A DNA stretch of 64,000 nucleotides, taken from the NCBI GenBank assembly GCA_937929805.1, contig CALFUT010000028.1, positions 1 through 64,000 on the forward strand, in the 5' to 3' direction. Origin of the DNA: an uncultured Pirellulaceae bacterium (GTDB lineage Bacteria > Planctomycetota > Planctomycetia > Pirellulales > Pirellulaceae). A program made the translations under genes and the position numbers. This document shows, piece after piece, positions 38,585 through 64,000 of this stretch. A model generated the notes under the pieces. It had not been told where the DNA came from. It saw only the letters and a program-made list of their open reading frames with translations, and did not search any database. How positions within the stretch are numbered: position 1 is the stretch's first letter; each line of letters begins with the position of its first letter.

Positions 38585-40792
38585 ATGCACAAAAAAATCG
38601 GTCGCAACAACATCGTATTGCTGGGCGTTGGACACACCAACGCTCATGTCGTGCGCATGTGGAAAATGCAACCGCTCGCCGGCGCCGAGCTAATCTGCGT
38701 TTCAAATTTTCCGGTGGCCACCTACTCCGGTATGTTACCCGGAGTTCTTGCGGGGCAGTATCCGGTATCCGCGATGGAGATCGATCTAGTGCGACTTTGT
38801 CAGTCGGCCGGGGCTCGGCTGATCGTGAGTGAAGTCACCGGGCTGGATCTGGAAAAGCAACGAATTGAGTTTCGTGATCGTCCGCCGCTGCCGTACCAAC
38901 TGTTGTCGATCGGGATCGGCTCTAGGCCGACGTTTTCCGGCGTTGAACTCGCCAGTGATGATGCTTTGGTTGCAGTTAAGCCAATGCAAACGTTCTTGCC
39001 GAGACTGCAACAGCGGATCGGGGCGGTGGAAGCAGCCAAGCCAAATCAGCCGGTCAAGATCGGGATCGTTGGAGGTGGCATTGGTAGCATCGAGATCGCA
39101 TTCTGCCTGAATCAAAGGTTCAAACAGTCGGGTCAATCGAATGTGGAATTGTCCTTGATCACGGGAGGCGACCGAGTCGGTACCGCGATATCGGATGCGT
39201 CGGCACAACTTGTTCAAGAACAATTGGACCAACAGGGCATTGGTGTTCACGCTGGGCATCGCGTAACGAAAGTGGATACGGACTCAATTGAGTTGACCAA
39301 TGGCGATCGATTGGACGCGGATGTGATCATTTGGGCGACGGGAGCTGCGGCTCCGGCGTTACTGGAAAAGTTTGACCTGCCCAAGGACGATCGTGGCTTC
39401 TTGTCGACGCGTCGCACATTGCGAGTGGTTGATCATGACCGCATTTTCTCGGTCGGTGACACGGGAACAATCCAAGACGATCCGACCTTGAAAGCCGGTG
39501 TGTTTGCGGTTCGGCAAGGGCCGATCCTGTGGGATAACCTTCGCCGGTCACTTTGGAAACGACCGCTGGTTAACTACGTTCCTCAACGGCGATTTCTAAA
39601 ACTGATCAACACGGCCGACGGAAAATCGATCGCAGAGTACTCAAAGATCACGCGATACACTGGATGGGCGTGGCGGTTGAAAGATCGCATCGATCGTCGC
39701 TTCATGGCGATGTACCAAAACTACGAACCGATGCCCATGAATCCTGACGCTCAGGATTTTAGCTCGGACGAAGCCATGCGGTGCCTTGGATGCGGCGGGA
39801 AAATCGGCAGCGAGCTGCTAAGCGAGGTATTGTCCGAGCTTGATGTTCCCGACCATCCTGATGTGCGAATCGGTTTAAAGAACCCCGACGACGCGGCGGT
39901 GATGACGACTCACGACAATCAAGTCACTGTTACGACGGACTTTTTTGCCAGCCCAGTCGAGGATCCGTATCTTGCCGGACGCATTGCTTTGCTGAATTCG
40001 GCCAGCGACTGCTTCGTGATGGGAGCTCAACCGACGGGTGCTCTTGCGATCGTGCAATTACCGCTGGGGCATCCTCGCGGGCAACTGGAAATCATGCGTG
40101 AGCTGATGGCGGGAAGCGTCGAAGAGTTAAGAAAGATGGATGCGACGATCGTTGGTGGTCATTCGATCGAAGGGCCTCGGCTGCTGGCGGGGTACACGAT
40201 CCTTGGTCGCCAATTGACCGATCCCATGACCAAAGGCATGCTCAAGCCGGGCGATCATCTGGTTTTGTCCAAACCTGTTGGCAGCGGCGTTGCATTGGCG
40301 GCGCTGATGCAGTGCCGGCTGCCGGGGGCAGCTTATCAACCGTTGATCGAAGCGATGCTGCAGAGCAATCAGATTGCTTTGCGTTTAATCACCGAGGGAC
40401 TGGTGACTGGAATCACAGACGTGACAGGGTTCGGGCTGGCAGGACATCTGGCTGAAATGCTCAAGAGTAGCGGTTTGTCGGCGGAGATTCGCATAAGCGA
40501 CATCCCAGTTCTGGCGGGTGTTCAAGAGTTGATCGACCAAGGTATCGAGAGCACATTGACGCCCGACAATCGCAAGGTGGCCAGTAAAGTGGATCTCCAA
40601 ATCGAAGATGTTAAATCGACTCGATTTACCGCCCTGTTTGATCCACAGACATGTGGCGGTTTGCTGATGGGCGTCAGCGATTCCAAGCTTGAATCGGTGA
40701 TGAGGACTTTGGGTGAATCCGGTTTTGAACAGGCAACGGTCATCGGGAGCGTCACTGAGTCTTGCGATGGGAACGCGTTGACGGTCGAGTGA
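38585..40792 (+). CDS. selD: Selenide, water dikinase fused to an NDH-like FAD oxidoreductase
   Basis: 735 residues. Residues 1-~385 are a pyridine-nucleotide-disulfide/NADH dehydrogenase-like flavoprotein: NIVLLGVGHTNAHVV, IGIVGGGIGSIEIA, ADVIIWATGAAAP, RIFSVGDTGTI. Residues ~395-735 are SelD, which makes selenophosphate from selenide and ATP. The catalytic Cys403 and Lys406 lie in CLGCGGKIG (E. coli Cys17 and Lys20). Further blocks are TTDFFASPVEDPY, TIVGGHSIEGP, ITDVTGFGLAGHLAEM and DPQTCGGLLMG. The NDH-SelD fusion is known in other bacteria; the first domain may reduce selenium. Selenophosphate serves selenocysteine or 2-selenouridine in tRNA. A putative selenoprotein gene lies 17 kb downstream. 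Confidence 0.95.
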   Translation: MHKKIGRNNIVLLGVGHTNAHVVRMWKMQPLAGAELICVSNFPVATYSGMLPGVLAGQYPVSAMEIDLVRLCQSAGARLIVSEVTGLDLEKQRIEFRDRPPLPYQLLSIGIGSRPTFSGVELASDDALVAVKPMQTFLPRLQQRIGAVEAAKPNQPVKIGIVGGGIGSIEIAFCLNQRFKQSGQSNVELSLITGGDRVGTAISDASAQLVQEQLDQQGIGVHAGHRVTKVDTDSIELTNGDRLDADVIIWATGAAAPALLEKFDLPKDDRGFLSTRRTLRVVDHDRIFSVGDTGTIQDDPTLKAGVFAVRQGPILWDNLRRSLWKRPLVNYVPQRRFLKLINTADGKSIAEYSKITRYTGWAWRLKDRIDRRFMAMYQNYEPMPMNPDAQDFSSDEAMRCLGCGGKIGSELLSEVLSELDVPDHPDVRIGLKNPDDAAVMTTHDNQVTVTTDFFASPVEDPYLAGRIALLNSASDCFVMGAQPTGALAIVQLPLGHPRGQLEIMRELMAGSVEELRKMDATIVGGHSIEGPRLLAGYTILGRQLTDPMTKGMLKPGDHLVLSKPVGSGVALAALMQCRLPGAAYQPLIEAMLQSNQIALRLITEGLVTGITDVTGFGLAGHLAEMLKSSGLSAEIRISDIPVLAGVQELIDQGIESTLTPDNRKVASKVDLQIEDVKSTRFTALFDPQTCGGLLMGVSDSKLESVMRTLGESGFEQATVIGSVTESCDGNALTVE

Positions 40793-50326: not shown

Positions 50327-53300
50327 ATGCCAAGTTTACAGACCCCGAATCTCAAACATTCTGCTATGAAAAACGGCTTTCTCTTTTTCGCGATTTTCGC
50401 ATGCGTACTCGGGTCCGCTTCGGTTGATGCTCAACAGTCAGATCAAATTGGCAAAGAAAAATCCGGCAACGATAAACAGACTCTGTTTGCCCGTGTTGAG
50501 GATTCGCAAACCGGTATCAATTTCATCAGCCGATTGCTTCCCGATCATGCCTTCGCCTACCTGTACCACTCTGGGATGACCTGTAGTGGTCTGGCAGCGG
50601 GAGACTTAAATGGCGACGCTCGTCCTGACTTAGTGCTTGCCAACGGGCCCGGTTCCAATGCCGTTTACCTGCAAACGAACACGAATTTTCAGTTTAAGGA
50701 CGTGACCGCTGACATGGGCCAAGCGTTTGTTGGAAAGGACTCGTGGGCGTCGGGCGTTGCTCTGGCGGACGTAGATAACGATGGAGATTTGGACATCTAT
50801 TTGTGCAATTACGAAGCCCCCAATCAGTTATTCCTCAATCAGGCATCGACCGATGGAAAAGTACAATTCGAAGAATGTGCGACGGTTGCCGGAATCGGCA
50901 TCACCGACGCGTCGCACTTTGCAAATTTTTGCGACTACGACAACGATGGGGATCTCGACTTTTATTTACTGACTAACCGAGTCGAATCGCCGGAAGGCGG
51001 TCTATCGAAACTGCCGGTGGAGTTTGAACGTCCGGGCGTGCCGACCCTGTTGCCGGGCTTGGAGCGATACTATGGCATTTGGAAAGTCGATTTTGACAAT
51101 TGGGGAGTAGAACCGGTGGGGCGGCCGGACTACCTGTTCCGGAACGACGGGCCTGACGAACAAGGCCGCCCTCGTTTTACCGATGTTACGAAGACAGCCG
51201 GGATTGCCGGGCGAGGTGACGGGCTGTCGTGCACTTGGTTCGATTTCGACCTAGACGGCGATTCCGACCTGTACGTGTGCAACGATTTTATTTCCGAGGA
51301 CCGCTTCTACGTGAACAATGGTGACGGTACGTTTTCCAATCGAGTCAGCGAAACCATGGCGCACACGACTTGGTTTTCGATGGGGTCCAACTTTGGCGAT
51401 CTTGATAACGACGGCGATTTTGACTTGATGGTCGCCGACATGGCGGCAACCAGTCACTACAAATCGAAAGTGACGATGGGAATCATGGGCGGCATGGAGC
51501 AGCAGCGTGCCAACAACTCCAACCCACCGCAGTACATGCGTAATGCGTTGCACTTGAATGAGTCGAACGGAACGTTTCGCGAAGCTGCTTTCCTAGCAGG
51601 GCTTTCCAGTTCCGACTGGACGTGGGCCGTTAAATTGAACGACTTCGATTCTGACGGTCGGCTGGATGTGTTTCTGACCAATGGCGTCCCCCGAGAAATG
51701 AATCACTCGGACATTACCATCACCCAAGACATGCTCGTTGGAAAACACATGTGGGAGTTCTTTAAGGATGGCGAGATGCGGAAGGAGCAGAATCTCGCAT
51801 TTCGCAACGAGGGAGAACTCAAGTTTACTGACACCAGCAAAGATTGGGGGCTCGATCATGTTGGTGCTAGTTACGGAGCGGCAACGGCTGACTTTGACGG
51901 CGACGGTGACCTAGATTTGGTGGTGATGAACCTCGAGGAAAACGTTGCCGTTTATGAGAACAAGAGTGAAGGCAATTCTTGGTTGACGATCGGGCTCAAG
52001 GGAGTAACCGCAAACCGTTTCGGAGTCGGGGCGACCATCGAATTAATCGCGGGCGAACAGAAGTGGATTCGGCAGTTGCAGCCCGGTGTCGGTTATCATT
52101 CTTACGATCAGCCAATTTTGCATTTCGGTTTGGGGACGCTTGAACAAGTCGACCGTGCGATCGTGTACTGGCCCGGTGGTGAAAGGCAGGTTGTCGAAGA
52201 TCTGCAACTCAATCAACACCATGAAATTGCGCAATCGCAAGGTTCGCAGGATAAGTCTGTTGATGACTCCGACGCCGTCGAGGATTCTCCAATGTTCAAA
52301 GAATCTTTGGCGTTGGAAGATCTGTGGCATCAAGAAAATGACTTCGATGACTTTGGGCGACAGTTGTTGTTGCCGCATGAGCTTTCTAGCGAAGGGCCCT
52401 GCATGGCTTGGGCGGACGTGAATGGTGACTCGCACGCCGATGTTTTTGTTGGCAGTTCCGCAGGCAGTATCGCGGAACTTCGACTGGGCGATGGCAGAGG
52501 CAACTTCACGCCAGTGATGAGTTCCGTCTTCGCGAAAGATGCCGCTGCCGAAGACTCCGCCGCGCAGTTCGCGGATCTCGATGGAGACGGTGACCTAGAC
52601 CTGATCGTTGGGCGAGGGAGCTATGAGTTTGAAGCGGGGGACGCGTTGCAGCGAAACGCAATCTTTCTTAACGATGGCAGTGGAAAGTTCACTGAGTTGG
52701 CGGCAGACAAGTTCCCCGATACCGCCACCAATACGGGCGCGATTGCGATCTGCGATCTTGATCAAGACGGTGATGTGGACATGTTTTTGGGGACTCGCGT
52801 TCGAAATGGCGAGTACCCACTGTCGAACGCCAGCGAGATTTGGATGAACGAGAACGGGCAGTTCGTGGTCGCTACGAACGATGTTGTTTCAGGGCTGGAC
52901 GACTTAGGCATGGTGACAGATGCAAATTGGGCAGACATCGATGGCGATGGTTGGCAAGATCTAATCGTTTCACGTGAATGGAATTCGATTGCTGTCTTTT
53001 ACAATGACAATGGGAAACTGAGTTTGTCCAAGGATACGGGTGCGTTGGCGAAGCGAACCGGTTGGTGGGGCGCAGGTAGTTGCGGAGACATCGATGGTGA
53101 CGGGGATGTCGATATCTTGGGCTCCAATGTCGGCTTGAATACCAAATACAAAGCCAATTTGAAGAAACCGATGGTTGTCTTCTACGGCGATTTTGATGGC
53201 AGTGGAAAATCTCATATCGTTGAAGGGAAACAAGAGGGGAATGTCTGCTACCCGGAACGAGGACGAAGTTGTTCCTCCAACGCGATGCCGTTTATTCGAG

Positions 53301-53770
53301 AGAAGTTTAAAACGTTTCACGACTTTGGAAAAGCTTCGTTGGTGGACGTCTACGGAGACGATAAACTGAACGCCGCATCGCGGTTTGAAACCAACACGTT
53401 CGAGCATGGCGTGTTCATCAATGATGGAACCGGGAAGTTCGAATTTCGAGCGTTGCCACGAATCTGCCAGATCGCTCCCTCGCGGTCCAACACGCTTGCT
53501 GACCTAGATAACGATGGTGACTTAGACATCGTGTTGGGCCAGAACTTTTTCGGACCTCAAGCCGAAACGGGGCGATACGATGGTGGGCTCAGCCAAGTTT
53601 TGCGCAACAACGGACAGGGGCAGTTCAGCCCTGTTTCTGCATTTAAAAGCGGGGTCTCTGTGCGTGAGGCAGTCACGGCGACTGAAGTCTGTGACGCAAA
53701 CAATGATGGGAAACCAGATATCGTCTTCGCGGTAAACAATGGACCAGTCAGAATATTTCAGGGGAACTGA
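50327..53770 (+). CDS. CRTAC1-family protein (FG-GAP repeats around an ASPIC/UnbV domain), exported
   Basis: 1,147 residues; a signal peptide is clear from the internal ATG at 50366 (MKNGFLFFAIFACVLGSASV). Two sets of FG-GAP/VCBS beta-propeller repeats flank one ASPIC/UnbV domain. The first set (~75-540) has DLNGDARPDLVLANG, DVDNDGDLDIYLCN and DFDLDGDSDLYVCN; ASPIC is at ~555-650 (ATIELIAGEQKWIRQLQPG, IVYWPGGERQVVEDL). The second set (~680-1140) has DLDGDGDLDLIVGRGSYEFE, DIDGDGDVDILGSN and DLDNDGDLDIVLGQN, all calcium-binding DxDxDGxxD loops. Such proteins are surface or adhesion factors in planctomycetes; binding partners are unknown. The Sel1 gene follows with no gap. Confidence 0.9.
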   Translation: MPSLQTPNLKHSAMKNGFLFFAIFACVLGSASVDAQQSDQIGKEKSGNDKQTLFARVEDSQTGINFISRLLPDHAFAYLYHSGMTCSGLAAGDLNGDARPDLVLANGPGSNAVYLQTNTNFQFKDVTADMGQAFVGKDSWASGVALADVDNDGDLDIYLCNYEAPNQLFLNQASTDGKVQFEECATVAGIGITDASHFANFCDYDNDGDLDFYLLTNRVESPEGGLSKLPVEFERPGVPTLLPGLERYYGIWKVDFDNWGVEPVGRPDYLFRNDGPDEQGRPRFTDVTKTAGIAGRGDGLSCTWFDFDLDGDSDLYVCNDFISEDRFYVNNGDGTFSNRVSETMAHTTWFSMGSNFGDLDNDGDFDLMVADMAATSHYKSKVTMGIMGGMEQQRANNSNPPQYMRNALHLNESNGTFREAAFLAGLSSSDWTWAVKLNDFDSDGRLDVFLTNGVPREMNHSDITITQDMLVGKHMWEFFKDGEMRKEQNLAFRNEGELKFTDTSKDWGLDHVGASYGAATADFDGDGDLDLVVMNLEENVAVYENKSEGNSWLTIGLKGVTANRFGVGATIELIAGEQKWIRQLQPGVGYHSYDQPILHFGLGTLEQVDRAIVYWPGGERQVVEDLQLNQHHEIAQSQGSQDKSVDDSDAVEDSPMFKESLALEDLWHQENDFDDFGRQLLLPHELSSEGPCMAWADVNGDSHADVFVGSSAGSIAELRLGDGRGNFTPVMSSVFAKDAAAEDSAAQFADLDGDGDLDLIVGRGSYEFEAGDALQRNAIFLNDGSGKFTELAADKFPDTATNTGAIAICDLDQDGDVDMFLGTRVRNGEYPLSNASEIWMNENGQFVVATNDVVSGLDDLGMVTDANWADIDGDGWQDLIVSREWNSIAVFYNDNGKLSLSKDTGALAKRTGWWGAGSCGDIDGDGDVDILGSNVGLNTKYKANLKKPMVVFYGDFDGSGKSHIVEGKQEGNVCYPERGRSCSSNAMPFIREKFKTFHDFGKASLVDVYGDDKLNAASRFETNTFEHGVFINDGTGKFEFRALPRICQIAPSRSNTLADLDNDGDLDIVLGQNFFGPQAETGRYDGGLSQVLRNNGQGQFSPVSAFKSGVSVREAVTATEVCDANNDGKPDIVFAVNNGPVRIFQGN

Positions 53771-54958: not shown

Positions 54959-55009
54959 GCCTTGGGTGATCAATCTGTGGAATGGGGGCGGCTTGGCTAC
55001 TGTTCACGG

Positions 55010-57892
55010 TTACTGAGTTTTTACTTCAAACCAGTTGAGGTTCCACTGGTTGCCGACCGAGCGAAAACGTAGTTTGTGCTGGCCTTCACTCAAAGAAAAA
55101 CTCTGACTGGATTGAGTCTGATAAGTTTGCCAGCCTCCTGTTTTTGGGACCGCTTGTTTGTCGATGACTTTTTCGCCAACAAGCACTTCAAATCCCTCGC
55201 TGCCGGTTTCAGAGGCTAGACGGTAGTCGATCGTATACTGACCGGCTTGGTCGACTCGAATTTCGTACTCAACAAAGTCGTCCAGATCGAAGTGGCCAAG
55301 ATTCTTACCGCCGCCGGAATCACCGCAGTCTTCTGTTTGAGCTCCTTCTACGGCTGCGTACGACTCTGCCTCAATTCGCGAGGGAACTGCGATTGGTTGC
55401 TGAGCCGTGAGAACTTGATCACTGCGATAACTTTCCGTTGCGTCGTTGTTGGCGGTTACCGAGTAAAAATAGCGTTGATCCGAGTTCTCTGGCGAATCTG
55501 TAAAAGTGGTGTCCGTCAGATCTTCAGCAACACATTGCCCTCGTTTTCCAGATTCGGTGGCGCGGTAGACGTTGTAACGAATATCTTCCCCGTCAGTCGC
55601 GTCCCAATTGAGTTGCACACCGCCGTCGCTTTCGATCAACTTCAAATTGGCCGGAGGCTGGATGTTTTGCGATTTGACCGAGCCGTCCCAGAACTCATGT
55701 TTCACCCAGTCGACTTCCATCACCCATTCGCCTGTCATCGGCGCGTCAGTGATCTTTGCGTAGTTCAGGATGGCAAACATTGGCTCCGGGTAGTTGTCGC
55801 CTTCGCCCACATTTCGATGAACCTCAGCCCCGTCAACGCGGTAGACTAGGTCGCTACCCGCCCACTCGACCGAGTACTCATGGTACTCATCAAGTGTGGT
55901 TTCGATCCCAGTTCGCAAAGTCTTCCAGTCGCCGTTGTCACGACCAACGCACTTGATCGCACCGGTTGTGAAGTGGTCAGCTTCGCCAGCGCCGTAGTGT
56001 TCAAAAATGTCGATCTCGCCCGAGCCAGTCAGCGGCCACGGGACGTTCTCGTCTGGCTCTTGAACAGGCGGCTCATTGTTCTGGGCACCCAGAATCCACC
56101 ACGCTGGGAACATGCCATCCTTGCCATTGCCGATCGTTCTTAGCCGCGCCGTCCAACGACCTTTGACGAATTCCTTTTTGTTTTTTGAACAGATGCGACC
56201 GGCGACGTATTCGGTTTCCGGATGTTGGTCACCTTTTTTGTCGCAATTGTCACACGCCTGCTTGTTACCGATGTTCACGACCTTCACCTTCAAAGTGCCA
56301 TCACTGACCTCTCGAGTGCCAAACTTGTTGTCGGGGACATAACATTGTTTTTCATTGTTTACCCAGATCATCTGGTCCTGCCAATTGTCAGCATTGAATG
56401 TGTCAAAGTCGTCAAAGAAATCAGTCGTCCATCCACCCGGCAGTTGGTGCAGCAAGGTTTGCATGGCTCGAGCGGGGATCGTGACGCTTGTCTCTTGGCT
56501 GCCAATGAAAAGTCGGTAGCTGACTGCTTCGTCACTCAAGTTCAACACCACGGTTGCCAGTTCCTGATTCAAGTTTACGAAGCTGGTGGTTTGCAAAACG
56601 CTGCGGCTGCTGACCGCACTAACACGCCGAGCGTTGGGGCGAATGAATTTTGAGAAATGACCAAGGTAGTAATATGTGGGCGTGTAAATCAGTTTGCCAG
56701 TTTCGCGGTCTGCATGAATCGGCGCGAAGCAAAAGTTGCTAACGTGATTGGGGCCTCCTGTATCATCAAGCAAAATATTCCAGTCGGTCCAACCGCTTGC
56801 TCCTGCGTTCAAGTCGTTCACGATCGAGTTCCCGTAACGCTCGGCGTTGGGCCAATGTTGGTAGCGAGCCTTGTCAAAACCTTCGACGGTGAATTCAGTT
56901 CCTAGCAAATTGACCTTGGGGAACGCCCGATGAATTTCGGCCAGATTGCCGAACATAGGTTCGCCCCCCGTCCAAGTTTCGTACCAGTGAAAGCCGACGC
57001 CCCACACGTACTTGGCAGCTTCGGGGTCTCCAAGGATCGTATTCGTTCGATGAGTTACCAGATCACGATTGTGGTCCCAGACGATGATCTTCTTGTCCCC
57101 CAGATTTTCCTTCTGCAGGATCGGCCCAAGGTGGTTTTTCAAGAAGTCTCGTTCCTCCTCCGCGGTATAAATCATGGATTCCCACCGCTGCGTTGCCATC
57201 GGTTCGTTTTGAACCGTGATACCCCAAATGGGAATGCCTTCGGCCTCGTATGCGTGGATGAACTTGGTGAAGTACGTTGCCCATGCGTCACGGAACTCTG
57301 GTAGCAGTTTTCCGCCTTGCAGCATGTTACCGGAGTCCTTCATGAACGCCGGGGCACTCCACGGACTGGCAAACGTTGTCAGCTTGCCACCCGCTGTCGC
57401 GATCGCTTCCTTGATCATCGGAATACGATTCACTTTGTCGGGAGCAATGTCAAAGGTTTTCAGATCCTTGTCACCCTCTTCGACATAGGTGTAGCTGCGG
57501 CTACCAAAGTCTGAGCTGTGAATCGTTGTTCTCAGCAAGCTGTAGCCCAGTCCATTTTCCGCATCAAAGTACGCCTTCATGAACTCTCGCTGGGTCGCTT
57601 GATCAAGCCGTGAGTAAACCTCAGCGCTGGCGTCAGTGATTGCTCCTCCAAAGCCCAGCACCGTTTGATCCAGATTCTCTGGATTGACAAAAATCGCGAT
57701 CTCGGTCTCTAGAGGTTGAACGGCCGGACGCAGTTCCAGAGGATCGCCCAGCGTCAGCCTGAGGTCGGTATCTTTGGCGGTGGTGTAGACTTGGATGGAC
57801 CCGTGGGAAGTTGGCTCCGTGGCAGTCGCAGGGTGGTGCAGGAGGGCTGTTATTAGAACGAGTACTGTGGGATGTAAAACTCGCTTCATCAT
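55010..57892 (-). CDS. Four-module secreted enzyme: GH30, GH16, FN3-like and CBM6
   Basis: 960 residues from the ATG at 57892 (MMKRVLHPTVLVLITALLHH), a signal peptide. Residues ~35-480 are a GH30 domain with acid/base E230 (TVQNEP) and nucleophile E333 (LGTEF). Residues ~490-740 are GH16 with the EIDIFE motif (E626, D628, E631) in SGEIDIFEHYG and the FPAWWI block. Next comes an FN3-like segment (PPANLKLIESDGGVQLNWDA, then YNVYRATES) and a C-terminal CBM6 (RIEAESYAAVEGAQTED, GHFDLDDFVEYEIRVDQAGQ). GH30 cuts beta-1,6- or glucosyl bonds and GH16 beta-1,3-glucans such as laminarin; combined they suggest branched beta-glucan breakdown. Exported. Confidence 0.92.
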   Translation of the reverse strand: MMKRVLHPTVLVLITALLHHPATATEPTSHGSIQVYTTAKDTDLRLTLGDPLELRPAVQPLETEIAIFVNPENLDQTVLGFGGAITDASAEVYSRLDQATQREFMKAYFDAENGLGYSLLRTTIHSSDFGSRSYTYVEEGDKDLKTFDIAPDKVNRIPMIKEAIATAGGKLTTFASPWSAPAFMKDSGNMLQGGKLLPEFRDAWATYFTKFIHAYEAEGIPIWGITVQNEPMATQRWESMIYTAEEERDFLKNHLGPILQKENLGDKKIIVWDHNRDLVTHRTNTILGDPEAAKYVWGVGFHWYETWTGGEPMFGNLAEIHRAFPKVNLLGTEFTVEGFDKARYQHWPNAERYGNSIVNDLNAGASGWTDWNILLDDTGGPNHVSNFCFAPIHADRETGKLIYTPTYYYLGHFSKFIRPNARRVSAVSSRSVLQTTSFVNLNQELATVVLNLSDEAVSYRLFIGSQETSVTIPARAMQTLLHQLPGGWTTDFFDDFDTFNADNWQDQMIWVNNEKQCYVPDNKFGTREVSDGTLKVKVVNIGNKQACDNCDKKGDQHPETEYVAGRICSKNKKEFVKGRWTARLRTIGNGKDGMFPAWWILGAQNNEPPVQEPDENVPWPLTGSGEIDIFEHYGAGEADHFTTGAIKCVGRDNGDWKTLRTGIETTLDEYHEYSVEWAGSDLVYRVDGAEVHRNVGEGDNYPEPMFAILNYAKITDAPMTGEWVMEVDWVKHEFWDGSVKSQNIQPPANLKLIESDGGVQLNWDATDGEDIRYNVYRATESGKRGQCVAEDLTDTTFTDSPENSDQRYFYSVTANNDATESYRSDQVLTAQQPIAVPSRIEAESYAAVEGAQTEDCGDSGGGKNLGHFDLDDFVEYEIRVDQAGQYTIDYRLASETGSEGFEVLVGEKVIDKQAVPKTGGWQTYQTQSSQSFSLSEGQHKLRFRSVGNQWNLNWFEVKTQ

Positions 57893-58073
57893 CGAATGCT
57901 CGCTTAACGTTTCAGAAATGTCCGTCGGGAAATGTCGTCGACTAATGCGGTTGCCCATACGGTCGTAGATCGAATGAAACCGGTTTCTTTGAATTGCTGT
58001 TGAGTATAGCATAGCCGGCAGTAAACAGTTTTGTAGTGGTGCCCCCGCTGATTGGTATGGTTAGAATTCTGTG

Positions 58074-60533
58074 ATGAACAGCACCTTTTTTCTATCAGAC
58101 GGGCGGTCGGTGCACGCTGCACGATTTTTAGTTCTAGTCCTCGCTCATTTTCTATTAGGCTGCGGGCAGGATGCCGGCTCTCCAACAACCCCAGCCGGTT
58201 CGTTGAAAAAAGTTGGGGAAATTGCGTGGGTCAGCGAACTCAACCGCGCCGAGAATCTGATTCTTCAACTGACGCCCCAGCTGAACACTTACAGTGAACA
58301 AGTCACCTCGCGGCGTGGGCCGGAGGTGGATGGTGCGGCCGTTTCGGGCTGGCAACCATTGCTCGATCAAATGCAATCGTTCGAGCACGCGAAATTCAAT
58401 TTTGTGGCGGGGGAGTTTTCGCGAAACAATCCCAGCCGATTTGAAACGCAGGTTAACTTTGAAGGTTTGGCCACGACAAAGTCTGGCCGCTGGAGCGCGA
58501 TCCGAACCAAGCAAAAAGTTGTGTGGGCCGCCGAAAGCAATGGTGAGCAAGTCGCGAGCGATTGGAAAGTTATCGATTGGGAGCAACCGGAATTCCAAAT
58601 TTCGGAACGTGATCAGCTCATGTTTCGAGATGTGACGACTTCGGCAATTCCTGTCGAAGAGCAGCCATCGCTTTTAAAACCGGCGCACGATCAGTTTATT
58701 ATTCGAAGTTTTCGAGGAGAAAAACTAGAGCTTCCCTATCCCGAGCTGGAACCATATTTCTCAACCGACGCCACGATGTGTCACCCGTCAGTTTCCATGG
58801 TCGATATTAACGGTGACGGTTGGGACGACCTGTATTTGATGACACGATGGGAGAAAAATCGATTATTTGTTAATCAACAAGACGGGACCTTCAAAAACGA
58901 AGCGGAACGTTATGGGTTGGATATTGGGCTGACGAGCTGTGCGATTTTCGCTGACTTTGATAACGACGGGGACAAAGATGTTTTCCTCGGACGTTGTTTT
59001 GAATCATCACTCTTGTTGGTTAACGAAGACGGAAAGTTTGTCGACCGAACGAAAGCGAACATTGCGGGCCCGTTGCCGGGCTTCATTACTTCCGCCTCTG
59101 CCGCCGACTACAACAATGATGGACAGCTCGATTTGTATCTGTGCAGTTACACTTCCATTGGATCGCATATAAGTAACGTCGAAACGGCGGCCAAGTTCAT
59201 GCCTCTGCCTCATGCTGAGGCCTTGATCGATTGGTTCACCAAGGCGTCGCCTGCAGATTTATGGCTCGATCGTCCGGGGCCTCCAAACCGACTGTTGAAG
59301 AACGTTGGCGGCGGCAAGTTCAAAAAGTCGGCCGTGATACAAGAGGTGTGGGCCAACACGTTTCAATCAACGTGGTCTGACTACGATCAAGACGGGGACG
59401 TTGATCTGTACCTGAGTAACGATTTTGCTCCTGACTATTTATTTCGCAACGATGGAGAGCTTGGGTTTTCCGATGTGACGTTACGCGTTGGTGAAAAAGC
59501 GATGCGAGGGTACGGCATGGGCGTGACTTGGGGCGATTACGACGGAGATGGTTGGCAGGATTTGTACGTGTCAAATATGTACAGCAAGGCGGGCAAAAGA
59601 ATCATTGGCCAAATGCGGGCCGAGCTCGATGAACGCTATCTGCTGTCTGCCAATGGGAATCGACTCTTCAAGAACCAGCATGGGCGAAAGTTTGATTTGG
59701 TTTCCGGCGAGGGACCGACCGACATCCAAGTCACGAAAGCCGGTTGGTCGTGGGGCGGTCAGTTTTGTGACTTCGACAACGACGGTTGGCTGGACCTGTA
59801 CGTCGCGAGCGGTTTCTATACGGCTCCGCAAGAAATTACTTGCCACACCGATTTGTGAAGTCAATATTGGCGCACGGTCGTGCGTACTGACGAAAACTTG
59901 GACACGGCAGTTCGAAATCAGGATTCATGGGAAGGACGAACCCACCACGGGCAAATTGACGATCCAATCAATCAATCGTTCAGTGGTGAAGAGCGGAATC
60001 GTTGGTATCACAACCGCCCCAGCGGTAATGGGCGCAATCTGCAAGAACGCTCGATCCTGTCAGGGCTTGATTCAATCAGCGACGGGCGAGCCTTTGCGAT
60101 TGGCGATTTTAATCACGATGGTCGACCGGATATCGCCCTTTGCAACGCAAACGCTCCGTTGTTGCAGATCTTTGAAAACCAGATCGATGACAACCACAAC
60201 TTTGTCGCTTTGCGTTTCGAGGGTTCGGCGACCCAAGAACCTGCCTCCGGGCCAGTTTCCAACCGTGACGGATACGGGACAACCGTAAAGCTAACGCTTG
60301 ACAACGGTCGAACGATTCTACGCGAGTTCCGTTGTGGCGAGGGCTTTGCTGCGCAGAACAGCGACACGATGCTGGTTGGGATCGGTGAAGCCGAAACGGT
60401 TTCCCAACTTTCAGTCAGATGGCCATCTGGGGTCACGCAAGTGTTTGGCCCGATCCAACGTGGGAACCTGCTGAATCTGAACGAAAACGTGCCGTCTAGC
60501 CAGTCCGTCCCGAAATCTTACGCGGAAAGATAA
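58074..60533 (+). CDS. CRTAC1-family lipoprotein with in-frame TGA: candidate selenoprotein (Sec595)
   Basis: 819 residues if TGA at 59856-59858 is read as Sec595. From the ATG at 58074 a lipobox (LAHFLLGCG) is followed by FG-GAP repeats: DINGDGWDDLYLMTR, DFDNDGDKDVFLGRCF, DYNNDGQLDLYLC, DYDQDGDVDLYLSND. The upstream frame ends EITCHTDL, then TGA, then SQYWRTVV and on, in the same frame, through DFNHDGRPDIALCN into an ASPIC/UnbV domain (TTVKLTLDNGRTILREFRCG, VRWPSGVTQVFGP), stop at 60533. C590 and U595 make CxxxxU. A SECIS-like hairpin starts right after the TGA and SelD is in the same window. The downstream frame has no ribosome site of its own. If not Sec, this is a gene cut by one nonsense codon. 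Surface or periplasmic role. Confidence 0.8.
59860..59891 (+). promoter_or_regulatory. SECIS-like hairpin immediately after the TGA codon
   Basis: Upper stem GCGCAC (59870-59875) with GTGCGT (59880-59885), six pairs including one G-U, closing the loop GGTC (59876-59879). Lower stem GTCA (59860-59863) with TGAC (59888-59891). The GGTC loop begins 17 bases after the TGA; in E. coli fdhF the same loop, GGUC, begins 18 bases after. No bulged U sits directly below the loop, but a U-rich internal loop (AATATTG) is on the 5' side. Confidence 0.7.
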
Positions 60534-60617
60534 TGTGCCGGCTCGGCTTGGTTGGTCCAGTTTCGCGACTTTACGTTGGCTCTCAAGCCCAGCCAGCGGA
60601 GTCAAGCACCGCTAGCC

Positions 60618-61064
60618 CTATTTTTCACTGGTTAGATTGAAATCGATGGGCGGATTATTTCCGGGCTTCACCGTCGCGGTCAGAGGCGTCCTTTGCCTAT
60701 CTTGATACTTCTTGTCAAGCATTTCCTTCCGACCTGCTACAGCCTCCCGTTTTTCTCCAGTTCTCTCGTAGACGCCGGCCTTGACTTCTTCAATCGCAGT
60801 TGAAATGGTCACTTTGTGGCTGCCAACGGAGGCACCTTTTTGATTGGCCGTGTATCGCAACGAATAATGTCCCTCGCTGTCGGTCGAACCAATACTGCCT
60901 CGCCCACCTGACGGGTAAAAGCCGATCAAGGCGTTAGGAAGGGGATCTCCATCTAAGGTAACGGTTCCCTCGACGTAACCAAAGTCGCCACCACCGCCAC
61001 AGCCAGTGAATGCGATGCACAAAACGGATAAAGCTGCGAAAGAAGTGATGGCACGTCGTTTCAT
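60618..61064 (-). CDS. Transthyretin-like (carboxypeptidase-regulatory-like) lipoprotein
   Basis: 148 residues from the ATG at 61064 (MKRRAITSFAALSVLCIAFT). Lipobox GC near residue 22 (IAFTGC), so it is lipid-anchored. The mature part is one beta domain: GYVEGTVTLDGDPLPNALIG, GSTDSEGHYSLRYT, VGSHKVTISTAIEE, as in planctomycete lipoproteins that accompany DUF1559 genes. Function not established; a cell-surface or pilus-like role is often assumed. It follows the DUF1559 gene on the same strand with a terminator-like hairpin between. A 15-residue upstream extension is unsupported. Confidence 0.85.
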   Translation of the reverse strand: MKRRAITSFAALSVLCIAFTGCGGGGDFGYVEGTVTLDGDPLPNALIGFYPSGGRGSIGSTDSEGHYSLRYTANQKGASVGSHKVTISTAIEEVKAGVYERTGEKREAVAGRKEMLDKKYQDRQRTPLTATVKPGNNPPIDFNLTSEK

Positions 61065-61118
61065 CTTTTGGAACCAATGATTGAAATCGAGAAAAAAATT
61101 GTAAGGCATTCAAGCCAC

Positions 61119-61149
61119 AAAAAAGCGGTGCGACTGTTCGGTCGCACCG
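61119..61149 (-). terminator. Terminator between the DUF1559 and lipoprotein genes
   Basis: CGGTGCGAC (61126-61134) and GTCGCACCG (61141-61149) form a perfect nine-base stem with a six-base loop. On the minus strand it is followed by CTTTTTTG. It would stop or attenuate readthrough from the DUF1559 gene into the lipoprotein gene. Confidence 0.88.
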
Positions 61150-61206
61150 TCGAATGGTTTTGTTAAGCAAAGAGCAGATTGCAAACGAGAACCAACAAGT
61201 TTTGGT

Positions 61207-62265
61207 TTAGAATTCTACGTTGACCTCTCCGCCATTGCGAGTGCCTGCAAACTCGTACGCGTCGGCACTGATAGAATCTGGCACAAACGTAACCGACCCA
61301 TCAGCGCGGCCGAAGTTAGCACCGCCGGGGTGGCTGCTTGAAAATGGAACCCATTGCTGTTGGTCACGAGTGATTCCCGCACCTGAATCAACATACGCCG
61401 AGTTAAGGTTGTATCCAACGCGACCGTCCGTCGGCCCCAGCGAGGAGTTCAACCAATGGACTCGACGCGTCCCACACCATAAACCGGCACCGCGTGTAAA
61501 CGACTGGCCACTCGGTGTTTCGCCATCGGCACCATCGCGTTCGCCCACCAAGAACGTGTTGCTGGATCCATCAGTGATGTCGCCAAAGGTAACATCCGAG
61601 TTGTGGAATAAGATCCCGGGAAACTCGAAATCGAGTCTCAGATCGTCCGTTGCGATCGATTGTGTGGAACCGTCAATCGTGTACTCCGATGCGTTGTCAA
61701 TTTCGCGCAGATCATGGGGTAGTTTAGGACCTACAACACCAACGTAATTACTTTTTCCTGCGAAGTTTCCACCCTGTTCAAGCGAATCCATTCCTCCGCG
61801 TACTGTATTGATCTGCTCCAATGGGCAAGAAGGGCAAATGAAAACGGGCAGAGTTTGATTCTCGAGATAAACTCTTGGCGTGATTGAGGGATCAAATGAT
61901 CGAGGGACGGTGAACGAATCAGACACACTCGATAGCTGATCAAAAATAGCATTTTGCTCCATGAATGGGAGGATGATCGTACTCCAGTTAAACCCTTTTC
62001 CTAGCAAGATCTGAGTATCGGTAACGCCGGGACCGGACGGCATTCCTTCAACGCCAGCTGGAAAGTGCTGGTTCGCGCTTTCGTAGTTGATCATTGCCAG
62101 AGACATCTGTCGCATCTGGTTTTGACACTGAGATCGACGTGCAGCTTCGCGAACTTGCTGGACAGCAGGAAGCAACATTCCAATCAGGATACCGATAATC
62201 GCGATCACGACTAGCAACTCGACCAGCGTGAAACCTTTAACGCGATGAAACTGTTTTTTGGACAT
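61207..62265 (-). CDS. DUF1559 (SBP_bac_10-type) pilin-like protein
   Basis: 352 residues from the ATG at 62265 (MSKKQFHRVKGFTLVELLVV); AAGG lies ~9 bases upstream. The N-terminus GFTLVELLVVIAIIGILIGM is a prepilin-like signal with the Phe/Glu pair (F, E5) for cleavage and methylation; after it comes QVREAARRSQCQNQMRQMSL. The C-terminal part holds the DUF1559 end motif HPGGANFGRADGSVTFV. These proteins are abundant in planctomycetes and probably form or decorate surface fibres, though this is not proved. It is followed by the transthyretin-like lipoprotein gene. A long upstream open frame (62400) is leader, not protein. Confidence 0.95.
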   Translation of the reverse strand: MSKKQFHRVKGFTLVELLVVIAIIGILIGMLLPAVQQVREAARRSQCQNQMRQMSLAMINYESANQHFPAGVEGMPSGPGVTDTQILLGKGFNWSTIILPFMEQNAIFDQLSSVSDSFTVPRSFDPSITPRVYLENQTLPVFICPSCPLEQINTVRGGMDSLEQGGNFAGKSNYVGVVGPKLPHDLREIDNASEYTIDGSTQSIATDDLRLDFEFPGILFHNSDVTFGDITDGSSNTFLVGERDGADGETPSGQSFTRGAGLWCGTRRVHWLNSSLGPTDGRVGYNLNSAYVDSGAGITRDQQQWVPFSSSHPGGANFGRADGSVTFVPDSISADAYEFAGTRNGGEVNVEF

Positions 62266-62709
62266 GGGAAAAAGCCTTAGAAAGAATGATAAGGAGGGTA
62301 CTCGAAAAATAATGAAACCGGTTGCAATGGAACGCAACCCGTAAGTAAGACCGCGTAATTGTAGCACCCGCAACGGAAAAGTCACACCGCAAAGGATCAC
62401 ATGTTTTGACTTAAGGTCTTTAGTGGTAGGGAAACTAACATTAGGAATGTGTCGAGGAATCTGTAGGGTTCTCGGCCGTGCTTACGGTCGAAGGTGATCA
62501 GATCTCCCGAAAATGTAGGTTGCGAAAGTTGTTTTCACCGGACATTTTGCCAATCGCAGGAAAATTGAAAGGTGCGAGAACGACAGAGTAAAACCATCGG
62601 TTCGTATGCGGCAACCCTCGTTCTCCCAGCAATTGAAACCAATGTCAAAACTAGCTTAGGTTGAATCCCCGCTTCGGTTAGCAGCTTGCGATGTGATGTT
62701 GAAGCGTCA
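62266..62709. other. Intergenic region
   Basis: 444 bases between the stop of pyrF and the start of the DUF1559 gene, both on the minus strand. Open frames here are shadow readings. It must hold the DUF1559 promoter. Confidence 0.45.
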
Positions 62710-63636
62710 TTACAGGTTGCCGGCCGATGTGTTCTCAGCGATTTGCCGATTCGTTTCGATCGTCGCCTGCTCAATCGCGGCTTGCCACGATCCGGCTCCC
62801 GCGAACTGATCACGCTCGTATGCGAATATGATTGCTCGCGAGCTGTTAATCACCGCTCCCAAACCGTTCTCGTCAAACGCTCCGGCGACGTCCGCCGCGG
62901 TGCCTCCTTGAGCCCCCAAGCCAGGAACCAAAAACAGCGTGTTGGGCATCAAGGACCGAAGCTCGGTCAACTGTTGCGGGTGGGTGGCTCCGATGACCGC
63001 GCCGACACTTCCGTAGCCGCTTTGCCCCAAGTCGGCTGCTGCGAGCGTTTGGACGTGATCGGCGACCATGGCGTACAACGGCTGCCCGTCAACTTTTTGT
63101 TCTTGAAAAGTCTTGCTACCCGGGTTCGAAGTCTTCACCAAGACGAACAATCCTGCCCCTCGCTCGGTCGCAATTTTAGTAAACGGCGTCAGGCTGTCGT
63201 CGCCAAGGTACGGATTGATCGTTAGCGAATCGCAGCCCCAAACGCTGGCGGGCTTGCGTCCCAAAAATGCGTCCGCATAAGCCGCTGCCGTTGATCCGAT
63301 GTCACCTCGTTTCGCGTCCATGATTACAATCAGTCCTGCTGCGTGAGCGTAGTCAACGACTTCCGCTAAAGCCAACATTCCAAGCGGCCCTAACTGTTCA
63401 AAGAATGCGGCCTGAGGTTTTACGGCTGGCACGAGCGGTCCGACGACATCGATCACGCCCTTGCAGAACTCGGCCGTAATCCGAGCCCGGTCTTCTTGTG
63501 TTGTTTCGATCGACGATACGCTAACTTTCAGCGTCGCCGGCAGTTGGTCAAAACGAGGATCGAGCCCAACCACCAACGGAGATTTTGTTTGCTTGATCTT
63601 TTGATTCAGGCGATCGGCAAAGTGAGAAGATGACAT
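62710..63636 (-). CDS. pyrF: Orotidine 5'-phosphate decarboxylase
   Basis: 308 residues from the ATG at 63636 (MSSSHFADRLNQKIKQTKSP). Last step of UMP synthesis: OMP to UMP. It is a type 2 PyrF, with VVGLDPRFDQLP, QAAFFEQLGP, the catalytic VIMDAKRGDIGSTAAAYADA (Asp/Lys/Asp), NPYLGDDSLTPF and VPGLGAQGGTAADV. Longer than class 1 enzymes (~230 residues), as expected. The upstream extension to 63708 is not PyrF-like. It follows the TcdA-like gene with an ~80-base gap on the same strand. Confidence 0.95.
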   Translation of the reverse strand: MSSSHFADRLNQKIKQTKSPLVVGLDPRFDQLPATLKVSVSSIETTQEDRARITAEFCKGVIDVVGPLVPAVKPQAAFFEQLGPLGMLALAEVVDYAHAAGLIVIMDAKRGDIGSTAAAYADAFLGRKPASVWGCDSLTINPYLGDDSLTPFTKIATERGAGLFVLVKTSNPGSKTFQEQKVDGQPLYAMVADHVQTLAAADLGQSGYGSVGAVIGATHPQQLTELRSLMPNTLFLVPGLGAQGGTAADVAGAFDENGLGAVINSSRAIIFAYERDQFAGAGSWQAAIEQATIETNRQIAENTSAGNL

Positions 63637-63714
63637 GAAGGATTTACTTATTTGTATTGTGGGGTTTGAATGATTGTGTGCCAACGTTGAACAAGTTTCG
63701 GCGACCAAGCAATG

Positions 63715-64000
63715 TTAGTTTTCCGTGATTCCTCGTACCACCACCGACGTTGCAGCCATCCCAAACGCAGCGGTGACAAAACCCGCCGTGCCATAAATGA
63801 TTCGGCGTTTCTCGCACGCGTGAGGCGAATCTTCGGCATGAGGGCAGATGCAACGAAAACCATCCGCGTCCCAGTCGGGTGTTTCAGGTTGCCGGATCTC
63901 TTCTTCAGAAAACACGACCGGCAGTCCGACGGTTTGGGAAGCATCAAAGCCACGCCGGGTCAGTTCTTTTCGCAGCACCCGAGCCAACGGGTCGTGCTTC
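63715..64000 (-). CDS. C-terminal part of a ThiF-family protein (TcdA-like), 5' end outside window
   Basis: About 95 residues are visible, ending at 63715 and open to the window edge: the end encodes KHDPLARVLRKELTRRGFD, followed by VGLPVVFSEEEI, CPHAEDSP, and YGTAGFVTAAFGMAATSVVV. This order is typical of tRNA threonylcarbamoyladenosine dehydratase (TcdA/CsdL), which cyclises t6A at position 37 of tRNAs, though the same C-terminal part occurs in related ThiF/HesA members. The adenylation motifs are outside the window, so the assignment is tentative. The gene continues beyond 64000. Confidence 0.72.
   Translation of the reverse strand, partial: KHDPLARVLRKELTRRGFDASQTVGLPVVFSEEEIRQPETPDWDADGFRCICPHAEDSPHACEKRRIIYGTAGFVTAAFGMAATSVVVRGITEN

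Follow-up and report, generated by a model that had tools for sequence, protein, structure and literature searches.

Selenocysteine (Sec) incorporation in bacteria is directed by an in-frame UGA codon, a hairpin with a G-first loop located 16-37 nt from it and the SelA/SelB/SelC/SelD machinery. In PMC13188914, the bSECIS model is defined by a loop of 3-9 nt with a G in its first two places, an upper stem of 4-16 bp, a distance of 16-37 nt from the UGA and an MFE <=-7.5. Two Sec-using planctomycetes are covered by PMC4807772. On the protein side, two systems are close to the locus analyzed here. Murine CRTAC1 (9etn) shares its FG-GAP/ASPIC-UnbV fold, whereas the stretch expected to hold the Sec insert is left unaligned. 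The TlpA/ResA/DsbE oxidoreductases, including NF041054 with its WAxxUGC motif, resemble the C-terminal CxxC domain of many relatives of the protein. However, Sec is placed in the propeller and not in a thioredoxin domain, and the protein described here does not carry that domain.

The window is a stretch of 64,000 nucleotides from an uncultured Pirellulaceae bacterium (contig CALFUT010000028.1). Its selenoprotein gene candidate (Table 1) runs from an ATG at 58074 to a TAA at 60531-60533. The preliminary description had reported a single TGA splitting an otherwise intact gene, which is confirmed: residues 596-819 (224 in number) follow without a stop and include the UnbV_ASPIC domain. It had also noted a GTG within the hairpin as the downstream start, and indeed the in-frame start listed there, among ORFs >=120 aa, is GTG 59880 in the 3′ arm. 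The UGA lies in frame within a conserved coding sequence. Five FG-GAP_3 stretches and UnbV_ASPIC (733-797) are detected by Pfam in the read-through protein and, together with the fold comparison, these repeats and the ASPIC/UnbV domain place it among CRTAC1 proteins. The signal peptide ends in L27-L28-G29-C30, which we take to be lipobox-like. Around 4 kb upstream, at 50327-53770, lies a stop-free CRTAC1 paralogue of 1147 aa that shows a gap in the alignment column of Sec. The minus-strand neighbour (55010-58012) codes for a GH30 glycoside hydrolase of 1000 aa that also has GH16-like and CBM6 regions.

Table 1. Positions in the window of the candidate selenoprotein gene, its predicted elements and selD
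Feature	Coordinates	Strand	Details and evidence
Gene for predicted Sec-containing CRTAC1 (FG-GAP/ASPIC-UnbV) lipoprotein	58074..60533	+	819 residues with TGA read as Sec; Pfam FG-GAP_3 E 1.4e-43, UnbV_ASPIC E 6.4e-14
Putative signal peptide, ending in lipobox-like L27-L28-G29-C30	58074..58163	+	By eye from translation
Cys590 codon (TGC), candidate in-chain resolving Cys	59841..59843	+	5 residues upstream of Sec; sequence
TGA codon, predicted to be read as selenocysteine (residue 595)	59856..59858	+	Translation, alignments; column invariant in 34/34 rows of alignment A1
Putative bacterial SECIS	59859..59891	+	Lower stem GUCA/UGAC, 59860-59863 with 59888-59891; upper stem GCGCAC 59870-59875 with GUGCGU 59880-59885; loop GGUC 59876-59879; TGA-loop spacing 17 nt
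ASPIC/UnbV domain 3′ of TGA	60270..60464	+	Residues 733-797; Pfam
selD: selenophosphate synthetase fused behind Pyr_redox_2 domain	38585..40792	+	735 aa; SelD E 2.6e-79, above cut-off

The decoding is of a known bacterial kind, and the protein family and its architecture are absent from the lists that were searched. Table 1 of PMC13188914 (2026) catalogues 119 families of prokaryotic selenoproteins and contains no CRTAC1, FG-GAP or UnbV protein, in agreement with the earlier remark that no characterised selenoprotein was known in this family. A full-text search limited to published articles and, for PMC4807772, to its main text returned no report of Sec for the UnbV/CRTAC1 family. The literature pairing selenoproteins with CRTAC1 or FG-GAP is, judged by title, medical or animal work. 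In NCBIfam, the sole match of the window protein is NF047539, below cut-off and away from the Sec. For the 34 rows of alignment A1, every one picked as a TGA form, no model of the Sec region occurs among the best 25 of 42 families, which are mostly of TlpA/ResA and TPR types.

The preliminary description had regarded a Cys or TGA at the Sec column of homologues as decisive. Among 63 aligned homologous frames, this column holds U in 42, Cys in four, a gap in seven and another residue in ten. The gaps and other residues are all confined to stop-free, more diverged paralogues. The four Cys rows (L063, L070, L071 and L073), which provide the Sec/Cys pair, read D-[YH]-C-[ST]-x-x-W; they come from two genomes and form one clade on the tree. 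GGTC is absent from the 60 nt counted from the Cys codon in these rows. Around Sec, the context D-x-U-S-x-x-W is near-invariant, and D593, U595, S596, W599, V602 and V603 are invariant across the 34 TGA forms of A1. The diverged relative L072 (G032:C168), a comparison frame that is not in A1, reads D-G-U-R-C-V-W; its TGA is present, its CxxC is absent and it shows an additional in-frame TGA upstream (GDULPD). In the paralogue clade L059, L061, L064 and L066 (frames of 1259-1305 aa), neither Sec nor Cys occupies the column; Pfam finds TPRs and no AhpC-TSA domain in L061, L064 and L066.

A pattern scan of a genome collection of 84,980 species gave at least 111 stretches with at least 116 places. 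At least 109 of the 116 places listed are CRTAC1 homologues (profile E <=8.1e-76), and the seven without a CRTAC1 match (L082, L083, L088, L123, L126, L164 and L176) are presumably chance matches. Among the matches listed, TGA forms span Planctomycetota, Verrucomicrobiota, Acidobacteriota, Latescibacterota, Myxococcales/Deltaproteobacteria and a few unplaced records. The pattern fixed TGA, TGG, M-G, GGYCGT and partly the base after TGA, which are no evidence in rows found this way; positions 17 and 27-30 were left free. Of the 392 genomes examined from the phylum, 40 contain the motif with TGA (by motif match alone) and none contains it with TAA instead; the backward-read control of these scans gave no matches for the TGA pattern and two for the TAA pattern. 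The sequence 3′ of the TGA shows dN/dS of 0.031-0.109 in five close pairs and 0.234 in one distant pair, dS being saturated in three of the nine pairs. In three genomes, TGA-bearing homologues stand three in tandem (G003:C101:65560-72896, G018:C32:23394-30787 and G020:C181:13289-20652). G025, from the same genus as the source genome, holds two or more TGA forms (L035 and L075 among them).

The hairpin of the window lies within the bSECIS limits given in PMC13188914, with a 4-nt GGUC loop, 6 bp, 17 nt and -11.9 kcal/mol over 53 nt. This energy is ordinary when compared with shuffles of the 53-nt stretch (z -0.35), and Rfam gave no match in 55000-64000 at E up to 1. That the hairpin exceeds chance follows from comparative evidence and not from single-sequence energy. 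The homologous hairpins fall into two groups with loop sizes one base apart. Group B comprises 86 distinct sequences; here an Arg codon ends in a third base that is synonymous in nearly every sequence and stands opposite the first base of the U+9 codon. This pair is A-U in 33 sequences, G-U in 28, G-C in 11, C-G in seven, U-A in three and U-G in one, with three mismatches. In all, the two bases pair in 83 of the 86 sequences; shuffles, which retained kinship, average 60.2, and none of 20,000 attained 83. For the 53 sequences of group A, positions 17 and 26 pair in 52, where shuffles average 48.4; 13 of 20,000 shuffles attained 52, again with kinship retained. Since the Arg base is synonymous and yet tracks its pairing partner, protein selection cannot explain this covariation. 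Among rows found by protein search alone, the loop is GGTC in 25 and GGCC in two of the 28 of group A; the 11 of group B show GGTC in five and other loops in six. Two Verrucomicrobiota sequences, L128 and L147, have a mismatch at the covarying pair, keep the TGA and lack CxxC downstream. The SECIS-like hairpin first noticed right behind the TGA is borne out as conserved and covarying, at a spacing of 17 nt.

The source genome (G000; 74 contigs, 95.6% complete) encodes the components of Sec synthesis and insertion. SelA is found with E 1.7e-145, SelB with 357 bits in a 648-aa frame and tRNA-Sec (selC) with 70.1 bits for a cut-off of 47. The search for selA, selB and selC proposed at the outset thus recovered all three, plus selD, which lies in the window itself. 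The SelD part is C-terminal to a pyridine nucleotide-disulphide oxidoreductase domain in this fusion. In a survey of 60 genomes, source genome included, the tRNA-Sec scores listed form two groups, >=62 bits and <=53.5 bits. An in-frame TGA, at any position, occurs in at least one homologue in 33 of the 60 among the matches listed, and all 33 have SelA (E <1e-30) or tRNA-Sec (>=60 bits). Three of them (G002, G003 and G019) combine TGA forms and tRNA-Sec, yet a full SelA match was not found. SelA and tRNA-Sec are both missing from 11 of the 60 genomes, none of which has a TGA form among the matches listed. Some machinery-bearing genomes (e.g. G006, G009 and G010) likewise show no TGA form among the matches listed.

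These observations bear on how the TGA is read. If a formerly intact gene had acquired a nonsense mutation, or if a base had been miscalled, a lone TGA in one draft genome, here an assembly of 74 contigs, would look the same. However, an identical TGA with its motif recurs in 148 distinct sequences from many assemblies, and this recurrence refutes a pseudogene or sequencing error; purifying selection acts 3′ of the TGA and TAA never takes its place in the 392 genomes, so that we consider this reading hardly credible. An ordinary near-cognate tRNA, for Trp or another amino acid, could also read through the stop, yielding little long protein and no selenium, and this would likewise conserve the downstream frame. 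Such read-through is very improbable nonetheless: the stop-free relatives nearest in motif carry Cys and not Trp, a covarying SECIS-type hairpin lies at 17 nt, and SelA or tRNA-Sec is present in 33 of 33 genomes with an in-frame TGA, at any position, in a listed homologue. If TGA coded for an amino acid throughout the genome, a TGA would also stand in frame in such a gene; this reassignment has the lowest probability of the three, practically nil. TGA serves as a normal stop in the window, terminating 22 of 42 non-overlapping ORFs >=150 codons, and the genome carries the Sec machinery; reassignment is thereby refuted for the source genome. Taken together, the conserved TGA site and RNA hairpin, the presence of the Sec machinery and the fusion of domains seen in relatives render Sec decoding very likely; on these genomic grounds, we regard a Sec reading of the TGA as close to certain. 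The initial assignment of Sec595 is supported by the TGA/Cys column of homologues, by selA/selB/selC/selD and by the covarying hairpin.

The AlphaFold model of the window protein, calculated with 34 sequences, reached a pLDDT of 87.5 and a pTM of 0.89. Residue 595 is predicted at the start of a helix (594-604), within an insert between propeller strands 574-579 and 643-647. Many invariant Asp residues are found in the propeller (A1). Asp residues of this kind are known from FG-GAP calcium sites. Among solved structures, the fold is closest to that of murine CRTAC1, 9etn, and the profile alignment to it skips profile positions 508-669, the expected place of the Sec insert.

Many relatives carry an additional C-terminal domain. 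In A1, Pfam detects an AhpC-TSA domain in 21 of 34 members, and NCBIfam detects TlpA in 20 and ResA in 19 of them. Domain searches covered these 34 members, and the CxxC counts are text searches within an interval. Of 85 pattern-found sequences whose tail is long enough, 79 carry a CxxC 215-330 residues beyond Sec, mostly at ~250-300. With the interval set to 215-340 residues, the motif is present in 99 of the 148 distinct sequences, and no Cys stands at U+2 or U-5 in any of these 99. A further 29 sequences lack CxxC and have an in-chain Cys, at U+2 only (26), at U-5 only (two) or at both (one). Neither feature is found in ten of the 148: in five the fetched sequence ends too early, a C-x-x-S stands in L108 and L177, and L128, L147 and L187 are true exceptions. 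The tails of the ten remaining sequences are too short to score for CxxC. The positions U+2 and U-5 were chosen post hoc from these same sequences, and the link between lack of CxxC and in-chain Cys was likewise noticed afterwards. Mapped onto a tree of 125 rows, the in-chain Cys requires few events, four changes of which two are forced by starred branches, and a sign test for independence is not significant. Of 14 comparison frames, 13 are without Sec (nine where the column holds neither Sec nor Cys, and four Cys forms) and none of these 13 shows a CxxC; the fourteenth is L072. The window protein itself does not belong to the TlpA/ResA-like proteins, as Pfam finds no thioredoxin-like CxxC domain in it.

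Cys at U-5 only is seen in the window protein and in L019, the row nearest to it (53% identity), and both are without downstream CxxC. As L019 is the sole other such case among 148, its lack of CxxC gives indirect support to the C590-x4-U595 arrangement suggested in the preliminary description. Two further placements of Sec in the C-terminal domain were considered and rejected. A second Sec at TGAs located at U+311 to U+455 was discarded, as none of the contexts listed is UxxC or WAxxUGC and these TGAs look like frame ends. Sec in the NF041054 (WAxxUGC) motif was also set aside: this model matches 10 of 34 members, and those positions are Cys in the downstream motifs listed.

We propose that SelB brings Sec-tRNA-Sec to the UGA, directed by the downstream hairpin. 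The product would be an 819-residue exported lipoprotein composed of an N-terminal helical/beta region, a CRTAC1-type beta-propeller and an ASPIC/UnbV domain. Sec595 probably acts in redox chemistry outside the cytoplasm; for most of the sequences analyzed, its partner would be the fused TlpA/ResA-like thioredoxin domain with its CxxC. In the lineage of the window this domain is absent, and C590 may resolve the Sec by forming a selenenylsulfide, C590-U595. That the gene is a selenoprotein operating by this mechanism as a whole is an explanation we hold with good confidence. Its parts are graded differently: a thiol or peroxide oxidoreductase role appears reasonably likely from the sequence comparisons, and the chances that C590 is the resolving Cys are about even. 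We infer catalysis, the C590-U595 pair, the location and the substrate. Sec might otherwise be decoded and serve a structural or metal-binding role, for example in a metal site on the propeller face, without redox catalysis. The wealth of invariant Asp in the propeller, as in FG-GAP calcium sites, and the unassigned substrate speak for such a role. However, the association of Sec with either a fused TlpA/ResA-like CxxC domain or a Cys close by agrees better with redox chemistry, and we regard the structural role as unlikely while giving it some weight.

Under the redox reading, the family may represent a large and hitherto unrecognised group of exported Sec oxidoreductases whose CRTAC1 propeller offers the Sec to a resolving thiol. 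The fused TlpA/ResA-like domain would be ancestral, replaced in some lineages including that of the window by a Cys at U+2 or U-5. We find slightly better than even chances for such a beta-propeller selenoenzyme, widespread in Planctomycetota, Verrucomicrobiota and Acidobacteriota. The TlpA/ResA-like fusion gives a concrete, testable redox hypothesis. If true, a widespread selenoprotein family would be gained, multi-copy in some genomes, whose genes seem split under the standard code. Sec would be placed in CRTAC1 propellers, a class known from animals, providing a clue to the chemistry of this fold. Lastly, selenium use would be underestimated in uncultured Planctomycetota, Verrucomicrobiota and Acidobacteriota.
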